From Paenibacillus sp. R14(2021) (GTDB lineage: Bacteria; Bacillota; Bacilli; Paenibacillales; Paenibacillaceae): a stretch of DNA of 64,000 nt. The DNA is taken from positions 2,972,501 to 3,036,500 of the forward strand of contig NZ_CP080269.1 in NCBI RefSeq assembly GCF_019431355.1. The letters run 5' to 3'. The notes below the pieces were generated by a model. It was not told the DNA's origin. It worked only from the letters and a program-made list of their open reading frames with translations, and made no database searches. The translations under genes were made by a program, and so were the position numbers. This document shows, piece by piece, positions 17,464 to 27,328 of the stretch (its first letter is position 1; each line of letters begins with the position of its first letter).

Positions 17464-18702
17464 TCAGAGGACGATAAGTCCCTCCGGAGACTGAGTCAGC
17501 TGACGGCAGCCGGTTTCCGTAATCAGGTAACTGTTCTCGATGCCGACGACGCCCCTGCCGGGGAACGTGAATTTCGGCTCCACGGCAAGCACCATGCCAG
17601 GCTCCATTCCGTCGCCGAAGCCGCGGGCAAGCACCGGCCATTCATCAACCTCGAGCCCTATGCCGTGGCCGAGAAATTTGACCTGATTGCTGCCAAAGCC
17701 CATGAAATGATCGGCGAGCCCCGCCGCGGCGGCATCCGCAAGCGACGCGGCATAGACGGCATCGCATGCCGTGCCGGGGCGCAGCAGCTGCTCCGCATGG
17801 CGGATAATCCGCTCTGACTGGGCATAGGCCTCCGCCAGATCATCCGGCAGACCGCCAATGACCGCGGTACGCGTCTGGTCGATCACATAGCCGTCGATGC
17901 AGCAGCCGATATCGATCAGAATCGGCTCGTGGCGGACGATGGCTTTACGGCTCGTGCTCTGCGGAGCGGCCGGACCGAGACCGAGGCCGCCGGCCGGGCC
18001 GTCGAATGCACTCGGTACGGCCGCAGCCGCTCCCGAGCCTAGCATGCCTGTCATGATTTCCATGTTGTAGCTGCGCGTTCGCATGAGGCCGATATGCCCG
18101 CGGATTCGCATCTCGTATTCGAGACGGGCCATCAGCTCAAGCTCGGTAAGCCCTTCTTTGATGATGGGCAGGGAAGCCTCCAGCGCTTCCGCCACCACTT
18201 GGGCGGCTGCTTCGATTCGGCTGACCTCCCACGGCGATTTGATCATCCGCTCCCGTCGAAGCAGCGCCGAGCCGTCGATCAGCGAACACGGCGCCTCGCC
18301 ATTACCCCCGGCGAGCACTTCAAGCAGCTTCGCATAAGTTGCTGCCGGAAGCACATCCATTTCCGTCGCAATCATGACCGCCGCCCCCGCTGCTTTGGCA
18401 AATACGGCCGGATGACGCTGCGCCAGCTGCTTTCGGAAGCCGCGCAGCGAGGCCAATGCCTCGACCAATGCAGCCGACTCCGACTGCGCGCGCTCCAAGC
18501 TGCGCCGAACATAAAATACCGCTTCTCCCTCAGCAGGGATAAACGCATAGCCCGCCTGCATCGAGCCCGTATAATAATATAAATCCACATGCTGCGTAAC
18601 GAGGAAGGCGTCGATGCCTTCGTGGACTAACCGCTCCTGCAGCCGTACGATTCTTGCCGTGATCTCTTCCCGTGCCACTGCTTCCAATTGTCTGTCGTTC
18701 AC
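17464..18702 (-). CDS. M24-family metallopeptidase (Xaa-Pro dipeptidase type)
   Basis: 412 residues: creatinase-like N-terminal domain (~15-145) and pita-bread catalytic domain (~165-410). All five dinuclear metal ligands can be read: Asp in LIDIG, Asp in VIDQTRT, His in LGHGIGLEVDE, Glu in AVEPKF and Glu in GIENSY. These enzymes release an N-terminal residue before proline, or cleave X-Pro dipeptides, in the cytoplasm. A Gly/Ala/Pro-rich insert lies between ~215 and 245. It is 65 bases downstream of the last Tad-operon gene with no clear terminator between, so it may be cotranscribed by readthrough, but no role in pilus biogenesis is implied. Confidence 0.88.
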   Translation of the reverse strand: MNDRQLEAVAREEITARIVRLQERLVHEGIDAFLVTQHVDLYYYTGSMQAGYAFIPAEGEAVFYVRRSLERAQSESAALVEALASLRGFRKQLAQRHPAVFAKAAGAAVMIATEMDVLPAATYAKLLEVLAGGNGEAPCSLIDGSALLRRERMIKSPWEVSRIEAAAQVVAEALEASLPIIKEGLTELELMARLEYEMRIRGHIGLMRTRSYNMEIMTGMLGSGAAAAVPSAFDGPAGGLGLGPAAPQSTSRKAIVRHEPILIDIGCCIDGYVIDQTRTAVIGGLPDDLAEAYAQSERIIRHAEQLLRPGTACDAVYAASLADAAAAGLADHFMGFGSNQVKFLGHGIGLEVDEWPVLARGFGDGMEPGMVLAVEPKFTFPGRGVVGIENSYLITETGCRQLTQSPEGLIVL

Positions 18703-18767: not shown

Positions 18768-19250
18768 CTAAGACGTCAGCTCCGCCGTTCCTTTGATGGT
18801 CCATGTGATCGGTTCAATAACGGCAAATACGCGCGGATACACGATTCTGGCAATCAGCACAACGCCGGGACGCCGCAGTGTTACTTCGTAGTCGGCGCTG
18901 TCATTCCGGTACGTATACGGAAAGGTGTTGTCGTCATTGATGATCTGAAAATCGACAAGCTCGACCCGCTCCTTCAAGTACGCGCCCGGCAAGGGCACTC
19001 CGTCTTCGCCGAGCTGTAAATTGCGCTGCAGGTACAAACCGGCTGCCGCACGTGCAGCAGCTTCGTCAATGTGTAGCCGGCCGTCGGCAAGCGCTGCCGC
19101 ATCCACCTGCTGCGCAGCGGCATGAGCAGCACGATTCACGGCATGCTTGCCTTGAAACAACGCCGCAATCGCCATTTCCTCATCGGTTTGCAGCGCATGC
19201 AGCAGCATCCAGACGACCATCATCAGCATAACGAGCACGAGCTTGTACAT
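18768..19250 (-). CDS. Pseudopilin-like protein, last gene of the Tad-like operon
   Basis: 160 residues, ATG 19250 with GAAAGGA upstream. The N-terminus is almost pure hydrophobic (residues 4-20), then comes a helical Ala-rich stretch (~30-75, HAVNRAAHAAAQQVD) and a beta-rich C-terminal half with IINDDNTFPYTYRNDSADYEVTL. This layout matches the TadE/TadF or DUF4320-type minor pilin proteins, an N-terminal membrane helix displaying an extracellular domain. No prepilin-peptidase motif is evident. It lies 40 bases after the previous gene. Confidence 0.65.
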   Translation of the reverse strand: MYKLVLVMLMMVVWMLLHALQTDEEMAIAALFQGKHAVNRAAHAAAQQVDAAALADGRLHIDEAAARAAAGLYLQRNLQLGEDGVPLPGAYLKERVELVDFQIINDDNTFPYTYRNDSADYEVTLRRPGVVLIARIVYPRVFAVIEPITWTIKGTAELTS

Positions 19251-19290
19251 CAGTCTCTATCCTTTCCCGAACGGCATACATCAATGATGG

Positions 19291-19716
19291 TTAAGGTACA
19301 TACTCGCTCATTTTCGTCCCTGTGGCTTTGAGCAGGGCGTCTGCCTGCGGCGGATTGATGCCGATTAATCGGTCAATATTCAGCAGCCCTTCCACCGGGT
19401 AAGTAGCCGTTAGCGATAACGGCGCTCCGCGGAGAAGCGGAGCTGCCGGATTCGTGGCATCCGGCCCGCCTTCCGACGACACCTCGAAACCAATCGAGGC
19501 CGGATCTAAGCCGAAGCCGGCCATTCGGAGCTTTGCTTCGTTTAGCATTGCGGCATCGATATAACCGTGATCTCCGTTCGCGCCGACTTCCAGCAAATAA
19601 TCCACCTCCTGCTGGAGCACAGCTTGACGTGCGATCAGCACATGCTTATAAATCGGTGAAAACATGAACCAGCACATCATGGCGGCCAGCAGCACGAATA
19701 CGAGGAGACTCTTCAC
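19291..19716 (-). CDS. Pseudopilin-like membrane protein of the Tad-like operon
   Basis: 141 residues beginning at GTG 19716, which overlaps the stop of the preceding 48-residue gene as GTGA. One N-terminal membrane helix (~3-20) is followed by a helical stretch (VLIARQAVLQQEVDYLLEVGAN) and a polar, probably beta-rich domain (LRGAPLSLTATYPV). Gly/Ala-rich acid patches occur in the middle. It resembles TadE/F-like accessory pilins in architecture only; I do not recognise the exact family. Coupled translation with the small upstream peptide suggests a common structure. Confidence 0.65.
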   Translation of the reverse strand: MKSLLVFVLLAAMMCWFMFSPIYKHVLIARQAVLQQEVDYLLEVGANGDHGYIDAAMLNEAKLRMAGFGLDPASIGFEVSSEGGPDATNPAAPLLRGAPLSLTATYPVEGLLNIDRLIGINPPQADALLKATGTKMSEYVP

Positions 19717-19859
19717 GGACTCATCCTCCGGATGCTGTCGCTCATATGGCTGCCCGATCGCTCCAGTTGTTTAGTCGTCCCTTCCTCGCCGCCCGTAACG
19801 TCCGTGTAGACGAGTACGGCGACGATGATGAGCAGCAGCGTCATTAGCAGCGAACGCAT
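19713..19859 (-). CDS. 48-residue membrane peptide of the Tad-like operon, paralogue of its neighbour
   Basis: Not in a typical ORF size range but well supported: ATG 19859 preceded by GAAGGAGG, stop at 19713 overlapping the next start (GTGA). Residues 1-18 form one hydrophobic helix (MRSLLMTLLLIIVAVLVY), the rest is polar and ends in SDSIRRMSP. The spacing of GT..Q.E..G......I..M is shared with the 50-residue peptide encoded just upstream, so the two look like a duplicated pair. Candidate pilin-like subunit or assembly peptide; it lacks the Gly/Glu prepilin cleavage motif of classical Flp. Confidence 0.7.
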   Translation of the reverse strand: MRSLLMTLLLIIVAVLVYTDVTGGEEGTTKQLERSGSHMSDSIRRMSP

Positions 19860-19898
19860 CACGCGCCTCCTTCCCCAGTGCAGCACATTCTACCGGCT

Positions 19899-20051
19899 TT
19901 ACGGCGTAAGCATGGTGCTGATTTTCGTATTGGCGGAATTGCCCTGCGACTCGATTTGCGCCTTCGTGCCCGTCGTGTCTTTGTTGATGATGGCGTTAAA
20001 CAACAGAATGACGACGACCAGCATCATTACCGTGATTAGAATATTACGCAT
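19899..20051 (-). CDS. 50-residue membrane peptide of the Tad-like operon
   Basis: ATG 20051 with AAGGGGGTGA upstream; stop 19899. The first ~20 residues (MRNILITVMMLVVVILLF) are a membrane helix, followed by a polar Thr/Ser/Gln/Asn-rich tail (residues 24-50). It lies 14 bases after tadC and 39 before its 48-residue paralogue. In Tad loci this slot is often taken by the major Flp pilin, so it is a candidate for the main subunit; the missing cleavage motif and absence of a prepilin peptidase gene in the window argue for caution. Confidence 0.7.
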   Translation of the reverse strand: MRNILITVMMLVVVILLFNAIINKDTTGTKAQIESQGNSANTKISTMLTP

Positions 20052-20065
20052 GCACGCTCACCCCC

Positions 20066-20956
20066 TTAGTTCAATGAATTAAACAGCTTCTGTCCTTCCC
20101 GGACCCAGGGATAGATGAAAATTTGGAATGTGTACAAAATCGGGATACCTGCCAGTACGAACAGAAAGTACGACGTCGATTCCTTGCGGCTGTCCTTCGC
20201 AAGCTCCAGCTTCTCCTTGTAATCCTGGATCCGCTCGCGCAGCAGCTCGTAATATCGCTCGCTCTCATGCAGGCGAAGCGAATCGATCGTCTCTACGAAG
20301 CTGAGCCCTTCCTCCGTTCCAAGTCTGAGCTTTAGACGCCTAAGCGCGCCTTCCGCGTCGTGATACCACTCGCCGAGCAGCTGCTGCAGGTCGCTCCGCA
20401 TGACACGGGTAAAAGGAAGACAGCGCATAAGCTTCGTATGGATATGGAGCGAGGAACCCGAGAGATAGAGCAGCTGGTTGCTAATCACATAGATTTCCTT
20501 GGTCATCCGCTCCGCGCGCGTTCGGCGCACCGCCTCGAGCCATGGCAGATCCCATAAGAGCAGCAGAAGCATGATCGCAAGAACAAGCGGAGCGGCAACG
20601 CGCGGCACGGCGTTCAAGCGCACAAACGAAAGCCCGTAAGCCAGCGCGCACCAGATCGGCGTGCTCATGAAGAACATCCGGCGAAGCAGGAGATACATGG
20701 TCGCATCCCCGGTATATCCGCAGCCGGCTAACAGCCGTTCCCTTTCCTTGAAGGATGGCGCATTGCGGCTTAAACCGAACGCCCGAAGCCACCGCTCATG
20801 AACGGTATAGGTCCGCCATTTCAATAATGCCAAATGCCCAAAACGCGGCCGTTTGAAGGAGACGGCCTTCAGCAGAGCGACGACAAACACGATACCGAGC
20901 ACATATTGAACGGCAAGAGCCGCCCACATCAATGCCATTTCGAATGAGTTGCCCAT
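20066..20956 (-). CDS. TadC-like inner membrane platform protein
   Basis: 296 residues with membrane segments near 8-28, ~90-110, ~120-145 and ~262-284, the pattern of GspF/TadC-family proteins in which a cytoplasmic helical domain lies between segment pairs. The region ISNQLLYLSGSSLHIHTKLMRC matches the conserved part of the type II secretion F domain. It would form the membrane platform with TadB, on which the CpaF ATPase works. ATG 20956 is the only reasonable start; the ribosome site (AAGGAG) is a little far at 13 bases. 19 bases after tadB. Confidence 0.75.
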   Translation of the reverse strand: MGNSFEMALMWAALAVQYVLGIVFVVALLKAVSFKRPRFGHLALLKWRTYTVHERWLRAFGLSRNAPSFKERERLLAGCGYTGDATMYLLLRRMFFMSTPIWCALAYGLSFVRLNAVPRVAAPLVLAIMLLLLLWDLPWLEAVRRTRAERMTKEIYVISNQLLYLSGSSLHIHTKLMRCLPFTRVMRSDLQQLLGEWYHDAEGALRRLKLRLGTEEGLSFVETIDSLRLHESERYYELLRERIQDYKEKLELAKDSRKESTSYFLFVLAGIPILYTFQIFIYPWVREGQKLFNSLN

Positions 20957-20975
20957 AACGCCGGCAGGGCTCCTT

Positions 20976-21911
20976 TCACATTTTTTTGCGAGAGAGCCAT
21001 AGGCCCATGACGAAGGATAAAAAAATCATGACAGCTGCGTTCAGCAGCATGTCGCGGCCTCCAGGGTCGATGACGTAATACCGATAAGCGTTCTCCGGGT
21101 TGTAATGGACGTTGATGCCCACGAATAACAGCAGAAACAAGAGCGGAGAGAAATTCGCGATCCGAATCTCCAGCAGCTTGTTGCGCTCCTGTTGATTCGA
21201 TCTTCGGGCTTTGCGCATATCCGTGATCAAATCCTTCAAATTCCCCGCTATCGGATGGCCCTCCGCCAGCCCCGCACGAACGATATTGATAAAATAATCG
21301 GCCCATACATGGCCAAGCGACGCCGCGAATATCCGCAGGCTGGCCTCATCGTCTCCACGGACCGATACGTTGCGGTACAGCTGCTCGAACACCGCCTGCA
21401 TGGGACCGAGCAGCCGCTTCTCCTCCACCGTGCGCTGCAGCGCGGCGCGGATCTGCCGGCCGCCGCTGACAAGGCAGCATTGATAGAACAATTCCACCGC
21501 CGGCAGAAAATCGATTCGTGTCTTCATCTGGCGGTGCACCAGCATCATGCGAAGCAGCAGATAGGGCAGGGAAACGAGTACGCCGCCCAGCAGGAGCATG
21601 CCCTTCAAGCTTTGGAAGAACAGACCGCCGAACGCTGTCCCGATAAGTAGAAGCAGCAGGCTGGTTACGACAAGCGAGCCCGGGCGCCAGCTGAGCTGCA
21701 ACGATTCCAGCAGCTCCGATACATGCCTGTACGACCGGTCAAACCGCTGCAGATAACGGGCAAGCCGCTCCTCGATCCGCTTCTCCCGCCGATAATGCAA
21801 TCGGCCGATCACCTGCTGCCGATGCAGCCATAAGCCCAGCAAATGACGGAAAGCGATAAACAAGGTGCAAAACAAGGCCGCCGCGAAAGCAAGCAAGGCA
21901 AACTTGGTCAT
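20976..21911 (-). CDS. TadB-like inner membrane platform protein
   Basis: 311 residues. Membrane segments lie at about 5-25, 78-97, 105-122 and 240-265, with a further one near 285-305. The central cytoplasmic region (~125-235) includes ELFYQCCLVSGGRQIRAALQR and GLAEGHPIAGNLKDLITDMRKAR, matching the T2SS F domain as found in TadB. It begins with ATG overlapping the cpaF stop (ATGA), so the motor and platform genes are translationally coupled. Nothing abnormal seen. Confidence 0.8.
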   Translation of the reverse strand: MTKFALLAFAAALFCTLFIAFRHLLGLWLHRQQVIGRLHYRREKRIEERLARYLQRFDRSYRHVSELLESLQLSWRPGSLVVTSLLLLLIGTAFGGLFFQSLKGMLLLGGVLVSLPYLLLRMMLVHRQMKTRIDFLPAVELFYQCCLVSGGRQIRAALQRTVEEKRLLGPMQAVFEQLYRNVSVRGDDEASLRIFAASLGHVWADYFINIVRAGLAEGHPIAGNLKDLITDMRKARRSNQQERNKLLEIRIANFSPLLFLLLFVGINVHYNPENAYRYYVIDPGGRDMLLNAAVMIFLSFVMGLWLSRKKM

Positions 21912-23356
21912 AATGCGCCACCTGCGCTTCCCTCCCGGTCTTCATCAAGCCGCTGTTGTCCTCTCTCATCCGGGTCAGGCCAGACCGATCGCCAGGATTC
22001 ACCCATCTCCCTAAGCAGTCTGGCTGCCGCATTTGCAGAAGGCAGATGCGGATACGTCCAATCTCCAGCCGCTTCGTCAAATACCGCCCATTCCCGCACG
22101 ACCGGCTCCCCGCGTTCCCACGCCATCTCCGCTAAACGCACCAATCGGCGCCGGCCGCCGGCAAAACGCATTTCAATGCCGATCTGAGTCACATATTCCG
22201 TTATCCGCTTCATAAGCCGGTCGCCATTCATGCCCCGGCCGTCCTGCATGCACATATCGGTAATGGCTTCCGGCACATCCTCGAGCGTATTGGCATGCAG
22301 CGTCGTCATGCTCCCTGCATGTCCGCGCGTACAAGCCCTCACATAGATGTTGGCATCCTCGTCCCGAATTTCGGCATGGATGATCCGCTGCGGCGATTGA
22401 CGGAGCGCGAGCTTAAACGCTTGCCCGGAACCATGCAGCTGATCCTCCTCATCCACCTCGTATTCGATGACGTTCTTCTCGGGAAAATCCTGCTGGAGCA
22501 TGAGCTCATGCCGGCTCTCGATCGTAATGAGTCGTTCTTCATCCGGCAGTTCCCCGATCAGTGCTTTAATCAGATGAGTCTTGCCGGAGTTCGTCGGCCC
22601 GATAATGACAACATTAAATCTGGCGCGCAGGACAGCCAGCAGCATCTGCCGCAGCCGTTCGCTGATCGTGCCGTATTCCGTCAGTCCGAGCTGATCCAGC
22701 CGAAAGCGCCGAACCGTATAGAAACGCAGGGTAAGCGTCGGCTTCGCCGTAAAGCCGAAGCCCGTCATTGTCACCCGCGTGCCGTCCCGAAGCATAACTT
22801 CCGCCCAGCGTTTGCGCGGGTTAATACGGTCATTGTTGTACAGTACGAGATTCTGCTGAATCCGTTCAACCTCGCGCAGCGACTCGAATGCGTAGGTCGA
22901 AGGATGGCTGACCCCGTCCCGCACCTCGAAAATAACCGTGCCAACGACTTGTATTTCCTCCAGCCCTTGCCGATTTCGAAGGACCAGCTCAAGCACGTTC
23001 ATCCCAATTACTTCTGCGAACAAGGCTTCGGCAAGCGTACCGTACGGATGTTTGTAGCCGTGCAATTCAAGAATGCGCTGCCGGAGCAAACGGTCGGAAA
23101 TAACGGCCAATATTCGTTCGCGATCATCCGTATAGCCGAGTACCGCGCGGTTCAGGCTCTCGTTGTACTCGCGCCGTTCCTCTTCTGTTTCTCCTCTCTG
23201 CTGCGCCAAGTATGTCCGCACGTCCTCCGCGAGCCGCTTGAAGTCCTGCTGAGCAGCTGCGATCGAAACCGCCTCTTCCTCCCCGCCTCCTTCTCCAGCC
23301 CATAACGCAGCCGAGAAAGCAGCGGGCGAGAAGCGAATTTCCTCCTTTCTCGTCAA
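21908..23356 (-). CDS. cpaF: CpaF/TadA-type secretion ATPase
   Basis: 482 residues. This VirB11/GspE-superfamily hexameric ATPase powers pilus extension or secretion. Visible motifs: Walker A GPTNSGKT (253-260), Asp box ITIES (277-281), Walker B region RIIHAEIRDED (with Glu329) and His box HAGSMTTLHAN (346-356). Normal motifs imply an active motor. The N-terminal ~45 residues are acidic and Gly-rich and precede the usual CpaF N-domain. Start is TTG 23356 overlapping the preceding stop as TTGA, with GGGGTGAG as ribosome site. Downstream tadB overlaps by ATGA. Confidence 0.92.
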   Translation of the reverse strand: MTRKEEIRFSPAAFSAALWAGEGGGEEEAVSIAAAQQDFKRLAEDVRTYLAQQRGETEEERREYNESLNRAVLGYTDDRERILAVISDRLLRQRILELHGYKHPYGTLAEALFAEVIGMNVLELVLRNRQGLEEIQVVGTVIFEVRDGVSHPSTYAFESLREVERIQQNLVLYNNDRINPRKRWAEVMLRDGTRVTMTGFGFTAKPTLTLRFYTVRRFRLDQLGLTEYGTISERLRQMLLAVLRARFNVVIIGPTNSGKTHLIKALIGELPDEERLITIESRHELMLQQDFPEKNVIEYEVDEEDQLHGSGQAFKLALRQSPQRIIHAEIRDEDANIYVRACTRGHAGSMTTLHANTLEDVPEAITDMCMQDGRGMNGDRLMKRITEYVTQIGIEMRFAGGRRRLVRLAEMAWERGEPVVREWAVFDEAAGDWTYPHLPSANAAARLLREMGESWRSVWPDPDERGQQRLDEDREGSAGGAL

Positions 23357-24213
23357 GAGCTCACCCCGCCCCGATGCGTCAGCAGCTTCTTATGCCAAGG
23401 CTGCACAACCGGCTTCGTCTGACGCCTCATCCCGTACGCTTCCGTTATAGCTTTCGCCGGCCCTTGCATCATTCGCTTTCCCCGATCGTTCTCGGTCAGC
23501 CATTCCTCCAACGTCCCGCTGTCCAGCTGCGTCAGCATTGAATCTGTCAGCGTCAGCTCACCAAGCATCGTCACGCCGAGCTCTTTGCCAATGTCCTTCA
23601 CATGAAATCCTCCCTTGCTCCAAGGCGAATGAATAATGATGCTCTGAAATGACTCCAGCGAAAAGCCGTAAAGCGGCGAAAGCTGCCTCACCCAGCGCTG
23701 TCCATCTTCTTGAAAATGGGACAATGCACTTGTCGTGACGACGATTCTCGTACTCGCTCTTCGCAGCGCGCTTAGGGTTGCCGCATTATCCCAATAAGCC
23801 CCGACGTCGGCAACCACCATATCGAACGTATGCTGCGCTGTTTCCAGCACGTGATCGATTTCCTCGATCGTATAGAATTCCGCCTGATCCCGAAGCATGT
23901 TGCCGAACAGAACATGCAGACCCGGCTGTTTGCGGCATCGATGCATGGAGCGAAGCAGCTTGTCTGGATAAAGCGAGCGCGTCGCCATCTCCGGCCGCAG
24001 CGAATCGAGCGTGGCGGCGGGCTCATCAACACCCAGATACCGGTGCGTCTTCGCACTCTTCAAATTCAAGCATAAATAGCCGACGGTGCCGCCGCTTTCC
24101 TCTGCGATCCGGCAAGCTGCGGCAAATGCGGCAGCCGATGTTCCGATATTCGGCGTCGTTCCGACGAATGCAATGATCGGCGCCCCCTCCATACGCGCTG
24201 GAAGCCGACTCAT
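23353..24213 (-). CDS. TadZ/CpaE-like MinD-family protein lacking the Walker A lysine
   Basis: 286 residues from ATG 24213 (AAAGGAG; overlaps the previous stop as ATGA). The fold pattern follows ParA/MinD proteins: strand, phosphate loop FVGTTPNIGTSAAA (16-29), LCLNLKSAKTHRYLG, MVVADVGAYWDNAATL and VVTTSALSHFQE. The loop should read KGGxGKT/S; here both the deviant lysine and the second lysine are absent, so ATP hydrolysis is doubtful. TadZ proteins place Tad machines at cell poles and some members have weak ATPase motifs. Its position between the SAF protein and CpaF supports the call. Confidence 0.75.
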   Translation of the reverse strand: MSRLPARMEGAPIIAFVGTTPNIGTSAAAFAAACRIAEESGGTVGYLCLNLKSAKTHRYLGVDEPAATLDSLRPEMATRSLYPDKLLRSMHRCRKQPGLHVLFGNMLRDQAEFYTIEEIDHVLETAQHTFDMVVADVGAYWDNAATLSALRRASTRIVVTTSALSHFQEDGQRWVRQLSPLYGFSLESFQSIIIHSPWSKGGFHVKDIGKELGVTMLGELTLTDSMLTQLDSGTLEEWLTENDRGKRMMQGPAKAITEAYGMRRQTKPVVQPWHKKLLTHRGGVSS

Positions 24214-24935
24214 CGCACCTGCTCCTTTGCAGGCGCGCCTGCATTCAGCGATTCCGAAGAGTATGCAATGACGACTTTGCTCCTCCCGCCCTTGCACAAG
24301 GCATCCAGCTGCAGCCACTGATCCTCCGTTAAATTCAAATTGATATAATCAATCATCCTGTTGGCATCCCGTCTCGAGGCGTACATGCCTTCCTTGTCTC
24401 CGTTTGCCAGCGACATCAAATTGGGATTCTTCGTATCGTCGATCTCCACGTTGCCGGCTGTCTTGACGGAAGCGACCGTAACCGGATCCTGGAATAACCG
24501 TGCGGAATTCACCGTCTCCCCAGACACATACAGCATGACCTTGTCTCCTGCCCGGATCCCATTCGAGATGGAAAGCACATAGTCCCTTGGAATGCCGAAC
24601 GTCGACTGGCTCCTGCTTGGCAGCAGCCGGAACTTATCTAATTTCCAATCGAGCAGCGGTTCTCCCGCACCTAGAGGGACGACCACTTCCATCCCGCTCA
24701 GCTCGTCGCCGCGCACCGACATCTCCGGGCTGTACAAGGCTTTGGCAATCTGCTTCGTACCGAGCATGTCCGTCGTAAGCCGCTCACCCGCCGCGACAAA
24801 CCGAACAGGCACAACAACACTGACCGTTTCCTGAAACTTAACCTGGCGCAGCTGCAGTACATATACGCCGTAAACCAGAAGACCTGATAGAAGCGCTGCT
24901 GCCGCTGAAATGACCATATTTCGTCTACGATTCAT
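24210..24935 (-). CDS. SAF-domain CpaB/RcpC-like protein, first gene of Tad-like operon
   Basis: 241 residues, ATG 24935 behind GGAAGGGAT. One N-terminal membrane segment (~8-27), then an SAF domain (~40-110: VVVPVRFVAAGERLTTDMLGTKQIAK and VVVPLGAGEPLL) and a beta-rich C-terminal region (YVLSISNGIRAGDKVMLYVSG). In other Tad systems CpaB/RcpC lies outside the membrane and helps pilus assembly. Here it heads a nine-gene run with overlapping or closely spaced starts. The terminator-like hairpin that lies only ~35 bases before its ATG may control the operon. Confidence 0.8.
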   Translation of the reverse strand: MNRRRNMVISAAAALLSGLLVYGVYVLQLRQVKFQETVSVVVPVRFVAAGERLTTDMLGTKQIAKALYSPEMSVRGDELSGMEVVVPLGAGEPLLDWKLDKFRLLPSRSQSTFGIPRDYVLSISNGIRAGDKVMLYVSGETVNSARLFQDPVTVASVKTAGNVEIDDTKNPNLMSLANGDKEGMYASRRDANRMIDYINLNLTEDQWLQLDALCKGGRSKVVIAYSSESLNAGAPAKEQVR

Positions 24936-24968
24936 CCTGATCCCTTCCGCAGTGGAAGCGCCGATATA

Positions 24969-25015
24969 TAAAAAAAAGAACGCAGGCCGGGCATGGTGCC
25001 CAAGCTTGCGTTCTT
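24969..25015 (-). terminator. Terminator between bactofilin genes and Tad operon, possible attenuator
   Basis: Minus-strand AAGAACGCA (25015-25007) pairs with TGCGTTCTT (24985-24977), with an inner GGGC/GCCC stem, followed by eight T. It ends the bactofilin transcript, but it also lies between a good promoter (25059-25087) and the first Tad gene at 24935. Confidence 0.8.
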
Positions 25016-25058
25016 CGCATAGCGGTCGCTAATGATCTGCTCATATAATGTTGACCTC

Positions 25059-25087
25059 ATAATAGCAGACATTATTTTAGCTGTCTA
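25059..25087 (-). promoter_or_regulatory. Promoter candidate for the Tad operon
   Basis: Minus-strand TAGACA (25087-25082), 17 bases, TATTAT (25064-25059). It starts inside the gap after the second bactofilin gene and directs transcription through the terminator hairpin into the Tad genes. Confidence 0.5.
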
Positions 25088-25112
25088 GATAAAATTGGGA
25101 TTTTTGTCGAAC

Positions 25113-25784
25113 CTACAACTTGAGCTCCTTTTTAATCTGCGCGTATCCGCTGCGCTTGAGCGATTTACGATACTCCACCGTTCCGATCCGGCAGCCGCTG
25201 CCGATCGTGACATGCGTGCCACGTACCACATCGGCAATCGTGTTCTCCAGATAGATTGTTTCCCCTTCGATCAGCTCTGCCGTGAGCGTCATTGGTCCCT
25301 GGCCGGAAAAGAACTGCTTGATCCCTCCCCATTTGGTCGGCCTTACGGTTATCCGTCCGCCGCCGATTTCCTTCGCACGGCAAGGTCCCCACGTACGGAT
25401 ATCCACCTCGTTCGCGTTCAGCAAGCCGTGAATATGAAATCCGCCGCGCGAGTCGAATGCGTCGGCCTCGCATTCGCCGCGTACGTCGAGCTGTCCTCTA
25501 ATTTTGATTGTGCGGCTCCTCATGCTGCCTTGAAGATCCATCTGCCCCATGATGCTGAAATCATTGCCGAATAAGTCGCCTCGCACGGATGCTTCTCCGA
25601 TCAGCCGGATTTTGCCGGATTTGAGTGAGCCGTCCACCTCGATATTGCCCATGCTGCGGATGGAGTCGCTCTCCAGCGGACCGAAAATCTGCGCCTCGCC
25701 CATAACACGCACGTTATGGTAGCTGCCGCCGTTCGTAGAGCCGTTGCCGGTAATATGAATATTCGGCTTCATCGTCATATGCAC
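25113..25784 (-). CDS. Bactofilin-like polymer-forming protein
   Basis: 223 residues. Short repeating strands with regular glycine turns (IHITGNGSTNGGSYHNVRVMGEAQIFGP, SIRSMGNIEVDGSLKSGKIRLIGEASVRG and so on) form a right-handed beta-helix of the bactofilin (DUF583) type through residues ~10-125, followed by a second small beta region. Bactofilins self-assemble without nucleotide into cytoskeletal filaments; BacE/BacF (YhbE/YhbF) in Bacillus subtilis act in flagellar assembly. GTG 25784 has GGAGGAGG seven bases upstream; ATG 25778 is possible. Second gene of the pair, 18 bases after its paralogue. No Cys or membrane segment. Confidence 0.72.
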   Translation of the reverse strand: MHMTMKPNIHITGNGSTNGGSYHNVRVMGEAQIFGPLESDSIRSMGNIEVDGSLKSGKIRLIGEASVRGDLFGNDFSIMGQMDLQGSMRSRTIKIRGQLDVRGECEADAFDSRGGFHIHGLLNANEVDIRTWGPCRAKEIGGGRITVRPTKWGGIKQFFSGQGPMTLTAELIEGETIYLENTIADVVRGTHVTIGSGCRIGTVEYRKSLKRSGYAQIKKELKL

Positions 25785-25802
25785 CCCGTTCCCTCCTCCG
25801 TT

Positions 25803-26498
25803 TTAGCCAGCAATTTGGTGCCGGTCGCCGACCTGCGCCAGCGGATGAACGATCAAATCGCCGCTGTACTCTACGCGGCCGATCTCACAGCCTGGACCGA
25901 TAATAACGGTTCGGCCGCGGACGACAGCTGCCGTGGTCTGTTCCAGCTCAATGATGTCGCCTTCGATGAGTGAAGCATTCATACGTGCCTGCCAGATCGG
26001 GAGCAATGACTTCATGACGCGCAGCAGCTTGGCGCTGCCGACATGCTTGATGCTTATAACGCCGCCTCGTATGCCTTCTGCCCGTCCCGGCCCTTCCAAT
26101 TGCAGGTCGATGCTTTCACCGGTCAGCCAGCCGTCCACGAGAAATGCGCCTCTCGCCTTGCATTTCTTCGTCTCGCAGCTTCCCTTCATTTTCAAATAAC
26201 CGCCAAGCTGCAGCTCCTCCGTGCAAAGCGAGCCATGAACGTGGATATGACCTTCAAGCTTCACAGCCGGGGACAGCACCGATCCTTCGCACGTAAACTT
26301 GCCGGATGCCTCCAGTTGCTCCGACGCCGTAATGCCTCCTTCTACCGTCGACATGCCGCTTGTCGTAAATGTAAAGCAGTCGATTGCCCCGTTTACCTTG
26401 CATACACCTTCCATCTTGACACTGTAGTAATCACCGCCGCCTGCATGACCGATGCCTGCGATTTGCAAATCCGGACGACTCGTCGTTTTCATATGCAT
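25803..26498 (-). CDS. Bactofilin-like polymer-forming protein, paralogue of its neighbour
   Basis: 231 residues from ATG 26498 (GGGGAG seven bases upstream); an ATG at 26519 lacks a ribosome site, and the shorter start also gives the same MHMK/MHMTMK beginning as the next gene. The same glycine-paced beta-helix is visible (YYSVKMEGVCKVNGAIDCFTF, VEGGITASEQLEASGKFTCEGSV), followed by a C-terminal extension that contains ELEQTTAAVVRGRTVIIGPGCEIGRVEY, closely parallel to the paralogue. The pair probably co-polymerises. It is next to the Tad-like operon, raising the idea of a scaffold that positions that machine. Confidence 0.72.
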   Translation of the reverse strand: MHMKTTSRPDLQIAGIGHAGGGDYYSVKMEGVCKVNGAIDCFTFTTSGMSTVEGGITASEQLEASGKFTCEGSVLSPAVKLEGHIHVHGSLCTEELQLGGYLKMKGSCETKKCKARGAFLVDGWLTGESIDLQLEGPGRAEGIRGGVISIKHVGSAKLLRVMKSLLPIWQARMNASLIEGDIIELEQTTAAVVRGRTVIIGPGCEIGRVEYSGDLIVHPLAQVGDRHQIAG

Positions 26499-26637
26499 TC
26501 CTTCACTCCCCTGGTTCATTCTCTTACTCTCATTATGGCTCGCATCGCCATGAGGAGACAGCGGCGGAAGATGGAACTTGAGCTACGTCCGCAGACGGAT
26601 GGCGCTTGCCTCTTCTGCGGCAGTCCCCGGAAGCGCA

Positions 26638-26693: not shown

Positions 26694-27044
26694 TCAAAAA
26701 TCAATAAGACCGACACTGATTTGAAGCGCTTCATCCACCTTACGCATCATTTCATCGTCAAGGTGAGTGATTTTGTCAGTTAAGCGCTGCTTATCAATCG
26801 TTCGAATCTGTTCGAGCAAAAGTACGGAATCCCGGTCGAAGCCATGGGATGCCGCATCGATTTCGACATGCGTCGGCAGCTTCGCCTTCTGAATCTGGGC
26901 GGTAATGGCTGCCACAATGACAGTTGGACTGAAGCGGTTGCCGATATCATTTTGAATGACGAGAACAGGCCGTACTCCACCCTGCTCAGAGCCAACAACA
27001 GGTGACAGGTCCGCAAAAAACACATCGCCGCGTTTAACGATCAA
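26694..27044 (-). CDS. ndoA: Endoribonuclease toxin EndoA/MazF
   Basis: 116 residues, essentially the MazF-family length. It begins [37 protein letters not shown] and the conserved Arg25 (GVRPVLV) plus the [15 protein letters not shown] and [16 protein letters not shown] segments match Bacillus EndoA, which cuts UACAU in mRNA. The start is TTG at 27044, two bases after the antitoxin stop with GGGGTG as ribosome site, so the antitoxin is translated first. A terminator follows. Highly conserved; nothing odd. Confidence 0.95.
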
Positions 27045-27046
27045 GC

Positions 27047-27328
27047 TTACACCCCGCTTACGAGTCGGCCGAGCGTATCGCCGGCATCTTCCTCCGCTTG
27101 AAAAGCTTCCGACGCCATTACCAGGTTAATCTTGGCCATCTCCAGATAGCCCCGCTGCATAGAATCTCGAATCTGGCGCTTCTTCCGCTCAATCAAATAC
27201 AGCTTCATAGCCTGACGAATAAATTCGCTTCGGTTCGAGTTTTCTTTGGCGACGATTCCGTCGACTTCCTCCAGCAAATGATCCGGTAAGCTGATCATAA
27301 TCCTTTTGGTATTTTGCAAATTGGCCAC
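27047..27328 (-). CDS. ndoAI: Antitoxin EndoAI, ribbon-helix-helix
   Basis: 93 residues from GTG 27328 (GGGGGTG upstream). The N-terminal strand-helix-helix ([40 protein letters not shown]) is a CopG/MetJ-type DNA-binding fold; the C-terminal helix wraps EndoA and blocks its active site. In Bacillus the gene follows alr; here it does too, but 316 bases away with its own leader full of inverted repeats that could be its autoregulatory sites. Confidence 0.93.

Follow-up and report, generated by a model that had tools for sequence, protein, structure and literature searches.

The genome of Paenibacillus sp. R14(2021) has a nine-gene operon that resembles the machinery of Tad/Flp (type IVc) pili and encodes four small proteins without prepilin leaders. 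The operon is in a 64,000-nucleotide stretch of contig NZ_CP080269.1 (G000:C1:2972501-3036500), hereafter the window, whose positions are used throughout. The original prediction, made from the letters of the window, described nine minus-strand genes forming a compact Tad-like machine with twin membrane peptides. Reading of open reading frames confirms all nine at or near the coordinates it claimed:

24210..24935, minus strand: CpaB-like protein with a SAF domain (PF08666, 23.9 bits, cut-off 21)
23353..24213 (5' end approximate), minus strand: TadZ/CpaE-like ATPase (weak TIGR03815 match and gene order)
21908..23356, minus strand: CpaF/TadA secretion ATPase (PF00437, 82.6 bits)
20976..21911, minus strand: TadB platform protein (PF00482, T2SSF, 29.5 bits, cut-off 25.2)
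20066..20956, minus strand: TadC-like platform protein (position and conservation)
19899..20051, minus strand: peptide A, leaderless candidate major pilin, 50 amino acids
19713..19859, minus strand: peptide B, leaderless paralogue of A, 48 amino acids
19291..19716, minus strand: pseudopilin 1, leaderless, 141 amino acids, with a GTG start overlapping the peptide B stop
18768..19250, minus strand: pseudopilin 2, leaderless, 160 amino acids

The CpaB-like protein also matches TIGR03177 (E 2e-8), and this match, like that of the TadZ-like protein to TIGR03815 (E 2e-5), is below the family cut-off. We chose the start of tadZ ourselves, where the gene overlaps the stop of cpaB. The closest solved structure to the operon CpaF is CpaF 8rkd (E 1e-26), and the TadC-like protein has no Pfam or NCBIfam match. 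Among the nine genes there is neither a secretin gene nor one for TadV or another prepilin peptidase. The twin peptides and both pseudopilins match nothing above Pfam or NCBIfam cut-offs. Peptides A and B, presented as relatives in the original prediction, are indeed paralogues (profile-profile probability of 99.35%), do not match the Flp families, and have a profile match to Flp below 10%. The Flp families PF04964 and PF16982 were rejected as a route to the operon's pilin; their matches mark other places in the genome. Sequence searches of solved structures with the profiles of pseudopilin 2 and peptide A, the two profiles used, returned nothing significant. Each pseudopilin is predicted to have an N-terminal helical stalk up to residue 45-46 and a small head (predicted local distance difference test score, pLDDT, of 90). 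Comparisons of predicted structures gave middling, mixed matches that do not single out a clear pilin family.

The operon is conserved as a unit within Paenibacillales. Operon-type clusters, assigned by TadB E-value and gene content in a division of our own, are present in 28 of 39 relatives, including the strain's own genome; every one of the 22 genomes from the genus has one. In a sample of 392 genomes of the order, 117 have pseudopilin 1, and the named genera that have it are Paenibacillus, Cohnella, and Thermobacillus, with P. sacheonensis and P. glycinis among the nearest named matches. In a class-wide sample of 398 genomes, a full-length match was found in the strain's own genome only; five others were partial, weak, and inside long frames. 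Conservation was examined in 80 named loci, which are the best 80 of 157 pseudopilin 1 matches, and in 27 closer loci, 16 of which come from the same genomes as named loci. The nine-gene order recurs in many genomes, far above chance expectation, and is complete in 72 of the 80 named loci, which supports the view of a compact, distinct Tad-like machine. Both short peptides are encoded in 78 of the 80. The remaining two are Thermobacillus loci (L109 and L115) with one short peptide, and this suggests that peptide A alone suffices; in both, pseudopilin 1 directly follows peptide A. In two genomes, G003 (L029 and L194) and G004 (L030, L195, and L196), the operon cpaF is split by mobile elements that encode a large serine recombinase. 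One insertion measures roughly 16 kb and the other, which resembles a prophage, roughly 42 kb; they occupy differing sites within the gene.

The absence of a prepilin cleavage motif from the twin peptides, part of the original prediction, is confirmed and extends to both pseudopilins. In the 27 closer loci, the initial Met (ATG, GTG, or TTG) of each of the four small, single-helix proteins coincides with the beginning of the hydrophobic helix, often immediately after a ribosome-site-like stretch; in L042, the start of peptide B is three codons farther upstream. Across the named loci, a start codon occupies the exact expected column in 80 of 80 cases for each pseudopilin, in 79 of 80 for peptide A, and in 74 of 76 for peptide B, counting loci whose B match is its own gene (in the other four of 80 the match is actually the peptide A gene). 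The only odd starts are those of peptide A in L110 and of peptide B in L098 and L160. These three aside, a class III leader ending in Gly or Ala is absent from all four subunits in both sets of loci. Of 320 subunit rows, all but 3 have L, V, I, F, or M at position 5, where the ordinary Flp pilins examined have Glu; seven further Flp sequences are no test of this, since Glu5 was part of the pattern used to choose them. A basic residue follows Met1 closely: R2 in 79 of 80 rows of peptide A, R/K2 in 74 of 76 of peptide B, K/R2 in 80 of 80 of pseudopilin 1, and K3 in 80 of 80 of pseudopilin 2. All 21 aligned rows of peptide A begin with M1-R2. Methionine aminopeptidase is expected to leave Met in place before such basic residues. 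Twin peptides that lack the cleavage motif must be handled differently from prepilins, as the original prediction reasoned.

Leaders could have been overlooked if translation begins upstream of these starts. An open-frame upstream start is available for 31 of 80 peptide A matches, 40 of 80 peptide B matches (four of which are the A gene), 11 for pseudopilin 2, and 6 for pseudopilin 1, which has no possible upstream start in the other 74 of 80 named loci. However, the position of the start is exact while its codon varies among ATG, GTG, and TTG, and a purine-rich site is located 4-17 nucleotides upstream in 79 (A), 73 (B), 44 (pseudopilin 1), and 68 (pseudopilin 2) of 80 loci. Residue -1 is unconserved for A, B, and pseudopilin 2. 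It is P or S in 69 of 80 rows of pseudopilin 1, as expected where the start of this gene overlaps the end of peptide B; at least 67 of the 80 named loci have this overlap, of 4 nucleotides. In the window itself, neither pseudopilin has an upstream start, and peptide A has a Shine-Dalgarno-like site and no earlier in-frame start; a GTG at 19886 is a possible upstream start of peptide B and is not conserved. Overlooked leaders are therefore hardly credible.

More distant clusters of Paenibacillales preserve what appears to be the earlier state of the pseudopilins. Six of them (L053-L057 and L059) have the same gene order and two to three leaderless short peptides, and their pseudopilins keep class III leaders of the NE[RK]G(G) type (e.g., NEKG^ISNL and NERGG^VDVM). 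Homology to the pseudopilins of the window is clear for pseudopilin 2 (profile probability of 98.9%) and fair for pseudopilin 1 (89.7%), and the CpaF proteins of these clusters form a separate clade. In 10 of 10 comparisons (five relatives per pseudopilin, alignments spanning 25 and 45 aligned residues), Met1 of the window protein aligns at offset 0 with residue +1 after the leader glycine; L056 was compared by eye, outside this count. Because Met1 falls on +1 of leader-bearing relatives, the subunits look genetically pre-cut, and the pseudopilin leader was lost exactly at the old cut site. The leader-bearing relatives likewise lack Glu5 (10 of 10), so loss of Glu5 may precede loss of the leader. 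Locus L170, the very diverged second cluster of G384 (G384:C14), likewise encodes a pair of short peptides and a pair of pseudopilins, all four leaderless, and is possibly a second, separate leader loss.

The strain also has an ordinary Tad cluster ∼95 kb away (L068; G000:C1:2866425-2881733), with genes for TadZ-, CpaF-, TadB-, and TadC-like proteins, a leader-bearing Flp1-like pilin, leader-bearing TadE-like proteins, and TadV. It additionally encodes a 756-residue protein with a prepilin-like start. A quick tree was built from 60 CpaF sequences, with ordinary Tad as the root and branch support from the Shimodaira-Hasegawa-like approximate likelihood ratio test (SH-aLRT) only. In it, the ordinary Tad (n = 9, support 100), leader-bearing (n = 6, support 99), and operon-type (n = 44, support 99) proteins form separate clades, and CpaF of L170 is a single very long branch; the program warned of long branches, and the tree omits the interrupted or partial copies L029 and L137, rows with no usable match, and nine chosen near-duplicates or relatives. 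By gene content and phylogeny, the operon is a machine separate from the ordinary Tad system.

Alternatively, the operon could be an ordinary Tad system that borrows TadV, perhaps also Flp, from the second cluster in the genome. Flp1-like genes score above cut-off in 39 of 39 relatives (gene order was read in two of them), and a peptidase was detected in 32 of 32 closer genomes searched. Sharing of a peptidase between systems is known: in the passages that deal with them, mannose-sensitive hemagglutinin (MSH) loci are described as having no peptidase of their own and as co-occurring with systems that have one (PMC6668835). However, the four subunits offer TadV neither a leader nor a cut site. 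The original prediction held that no prepilin peptidase is in the window and that a standard Flp gene and peptidase serving the operon from elsewhere would speak against it. Both genes do exist elsewhere in the genome, but they belong to the second Tad cluster, and two genomes retain the operon with neither. Borrowing is thus improbable.

These two genomes, G381 (one contig, 100% complete) and G156 (110 contigs, 99%), stand out in a search for Peptidase_A24 (PF01478), which detected the family in 106 of 108 operon-bearing genomes and in neither of these. The search covered 28 + 80 genomes, the 80 judged operon-bearing by their pseudopilin 1 match; it reached all but 28 of the 117 operon-bearing genomes of the order. 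Likewise, neither genome has a Flp1-like gene above cut-off, and the operon CpaF is the sole PF00437 match in each. By this gene content, G381 and G156 have lost the ordinary Tad cluster too. Their operons are intact with leaderless subunits and occupy two separate positions in the CpaF tree. Relative to those of peptidase-bearing relatives, their pilin genes have proportions of nonsynonymous differences (pN) of 0.26-0.28 and of synonymous differences (pS) of 0.70-0.76, with synonymous sites near saturation; in an unsaturated pair of other genomes, the ratio of nonsynonymous to synonymous rates (dN/dS) of the pilin genes is 0.12. Intact and constrained operons imply that the operon is maintained in both strains with no detectable prepilin peptidase, although a peptidase of another family may be present.

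We suggest that the operon most likely encodes a peptidase-independent Tad-like filament, a filament that we infer from genes and their conservation. The reading that we favor, and hold to be probable, is that of a second type IV filament machine, derived from Tad, in which the subunits are synthesized mature, already trimmed. Somewhat less firmly, though still on the side of belief, we suggest a lineage of type IV filaments with no prepilin processing at all, in which all subunits are translated pre-cut and leader and peptidase became dispensable once Glu5 was lost.

A different use of the same proteins also has to be considered. The operon could encode a static membrane complex, like a type II secretion system (T2SS) or mechanosensory, that is driven by CpaF and has abandoned filament building, hence its leaderless proteins. 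Both the leader and Glu5 are lost, a surface filament is not known, and the N-terminal helices would anchor the proteins in the membrane equally well. Conversely, CpaF, TadB, and TadC are conserved along with the subunits, and the subunits are strongly constrained. Loss exactly at the cut site preserves an assembly-ready N-terminus, which would be superfluous for a static anchor. We regard such a complex as doubtful, though it is the most serious competitor to a filament.

For a filament of pre-cut subunits, the basic residue near Met1 (R or K at position 2 of both peptides and of pseudopilin 1; K3 in pseudopilin 2) would stand in for the charged leader and set an N-in, C-out orientation. Synthesis in mature form and in this orientation would mean that subunits enter the membrane assembly-ready, and a prepilin peptidase step would be unnecessary. 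CpaF with TadB and TadC would then extract and stack the membrane subunits. Most of the filament would probably consist of peptide A, and the pseudopilins would serve as its tip or as minor components. Candidate surface roles are adhesion, sensing, or DNA handling. An analogy, from an unrelated phage protein and no more than that, is the Pf3 coat protein: this short subunit of a filament is synthesized leaderless, whereas the M13 coat protein has a leader.

Expression may be controlled by a structure unique to the operon. Two features are located upstream of cpaB:

25059..25087, minus strand: promoter-like site (TAGACA-N17-TATTAT) that precedes the leader RNA
24970..25019, minus strand: leader RNA with a TGCG-AAGAA-CGCA hairpin overlapping a terminator-like stem (AAGAACGCA...TGCGTTCTTTTTTT)

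The sequence TGCGAAGAACGCA...TGCGTTCTTTTTTT sits upstream of cpaB, and the AAGNA-loop hairpin and the terminator-like stem are mutually exclusive. In 98 of 100 upstream stretches (15 genomes are represented twice), a T-run follows a hairpin with an AAGNA loop. A promoter-like site, by a loose definition, is present in 87 of the same 100, a count made without chance control. All 65 aligned elements, from 94 distinct, form the terminator-like stem; they were preselected by a pattern with both arms, which makes this result partly one of construction. The inner stem pairs, which are outside the selection pattern, vary yet mostly remain paired. The leader pattern was not found in 13 of 108 loci, four of which are variants by eye, and for most of the rest the sequence upstream of cpaB is outside the data. 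In whole genomes, a strict pattern occurs in exactly one copy in 18 of 18 genomes of the genus and in 0 of 11 others, three of which carry the operon with sequence variants; a reversed control pattern had no occurrences in the same search. No Rfam family scores above its cut-off, with bglG-cis-reg RNA (RF03530) reaching 28.2 bits against a gathering score of 80. By eye, leaders of the leader-bearing clusters L053, L056, L057, and L059 look analogous, and those of L054 and L055 do not. These patterns are consistent with operon-specific transcription attenuation, in which the leader terminator would gate expression.

The promoter-like site and terminator-like leader also bear on the neighborhood of the operon. 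Two bactofilin genes (PF04519, cut-off 27.9) are located upstream of cpaB:

25113-25784: bactofilin (36.2 bits)
25803-26519: bactofilin (28.0 bits)

The original prediction proposed an appendage placed by a bactofilin scaffold, an idea prompted by this arrangement, which is seen in the window and in closely related genomes that form a small clade. However, bactofilins adjoin cpaB in just 5 of the 80 named loci, which extend ∼3.7 kb upstream of cpaB and in which very diverged bactofilins could escape detection. Among 25 loci of the genus, family, and order with cpaB, bactofilins are adjacent in 6, at ∼4-5 kb in 4, and absent within ∼7 kb in 15. In G003, they are on the far side of the insertion. 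In addition, the promoter-like site and leader separate them from cpaB. A bactofilin scaffold is very unlikely, the neighborhood is not conserved, and the bactofilins are a local neighbor outside the conserved system.

Other neighbors are of lesser interest. Downstream of the operon is a gene for an M24 family peptidase (17464-18702, minus strand), found in 67 of 80 named loci; it is probably a bystander, though notable as a peptidase beside pre-cut subunits. At 26694-27328 (minus strand) are a MazF/PemK-like toxin and a ribbon-helix-helix partner, adjoining alr. The toxin is 90-99% identical across the family where present.

Relative to known systems, the operon shares with Tad/Flp pili the set of CpaF, TadB, TadC-like, TadZ-like, and CpaB-like proteins and the placement of short subunits between tadC and TadE/F-like pseudopilins. 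Its 48-50-residue subunits are also close in size to the mature Caulobacter pilin, given as 45 residues in the relevant passage of PMC11067988. It differs in having no class III leader, no Glu5, and no TadV or Flp in the locus. Reviews, in the passages that treat the subject, present a class III signal peptide as shared by type IV filament subunits and a dedicated prepilin peptidase as part of the conserved set (PMC4471445, PMC10191384). The operon has neither leader nor Glu5 yet keeps the Tad machine, and we thus file it as a new Tad-derived variant that presumably works like a Tad system. A possible precedent is a few clostridial tad-like loci that lack a protein with a prepilin motif, in the relevant section of Imam et al. 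(PMC3244431). They are similar in having Tad-like genes with no recognizable prepilin; unlike the operon, they retain tadV, and leaderless subunits are not mentioned in that section. In Paenibacillus strain NAIST15-1, two pilus loci were seen and a pilin gene was not found, according to the passage on these loci (PMC5072692), and we infer that they include an operon of the present type. In the portions of openly licensed PubMed Central (PMC) literature that were covered, we found no report of leaderless or pre-cut subunits or of a peptidase-free type IV filament.

If a lineage without any prepilin processing exists, the leader and peptidase that are regarded as universal in the type IV filament superfamily would be dispensable. 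A machine built on pre-cut subunits questions the purpose of the leader, whether timing, safe storage in the membrane, or the chemistry of a new N-terminus. Strains G381 and G156 represent a natural control, with the machine present and the peptidase undetectable. Pre-cut subunits would also explain why pilin finders that depend on leaders miss such systems.

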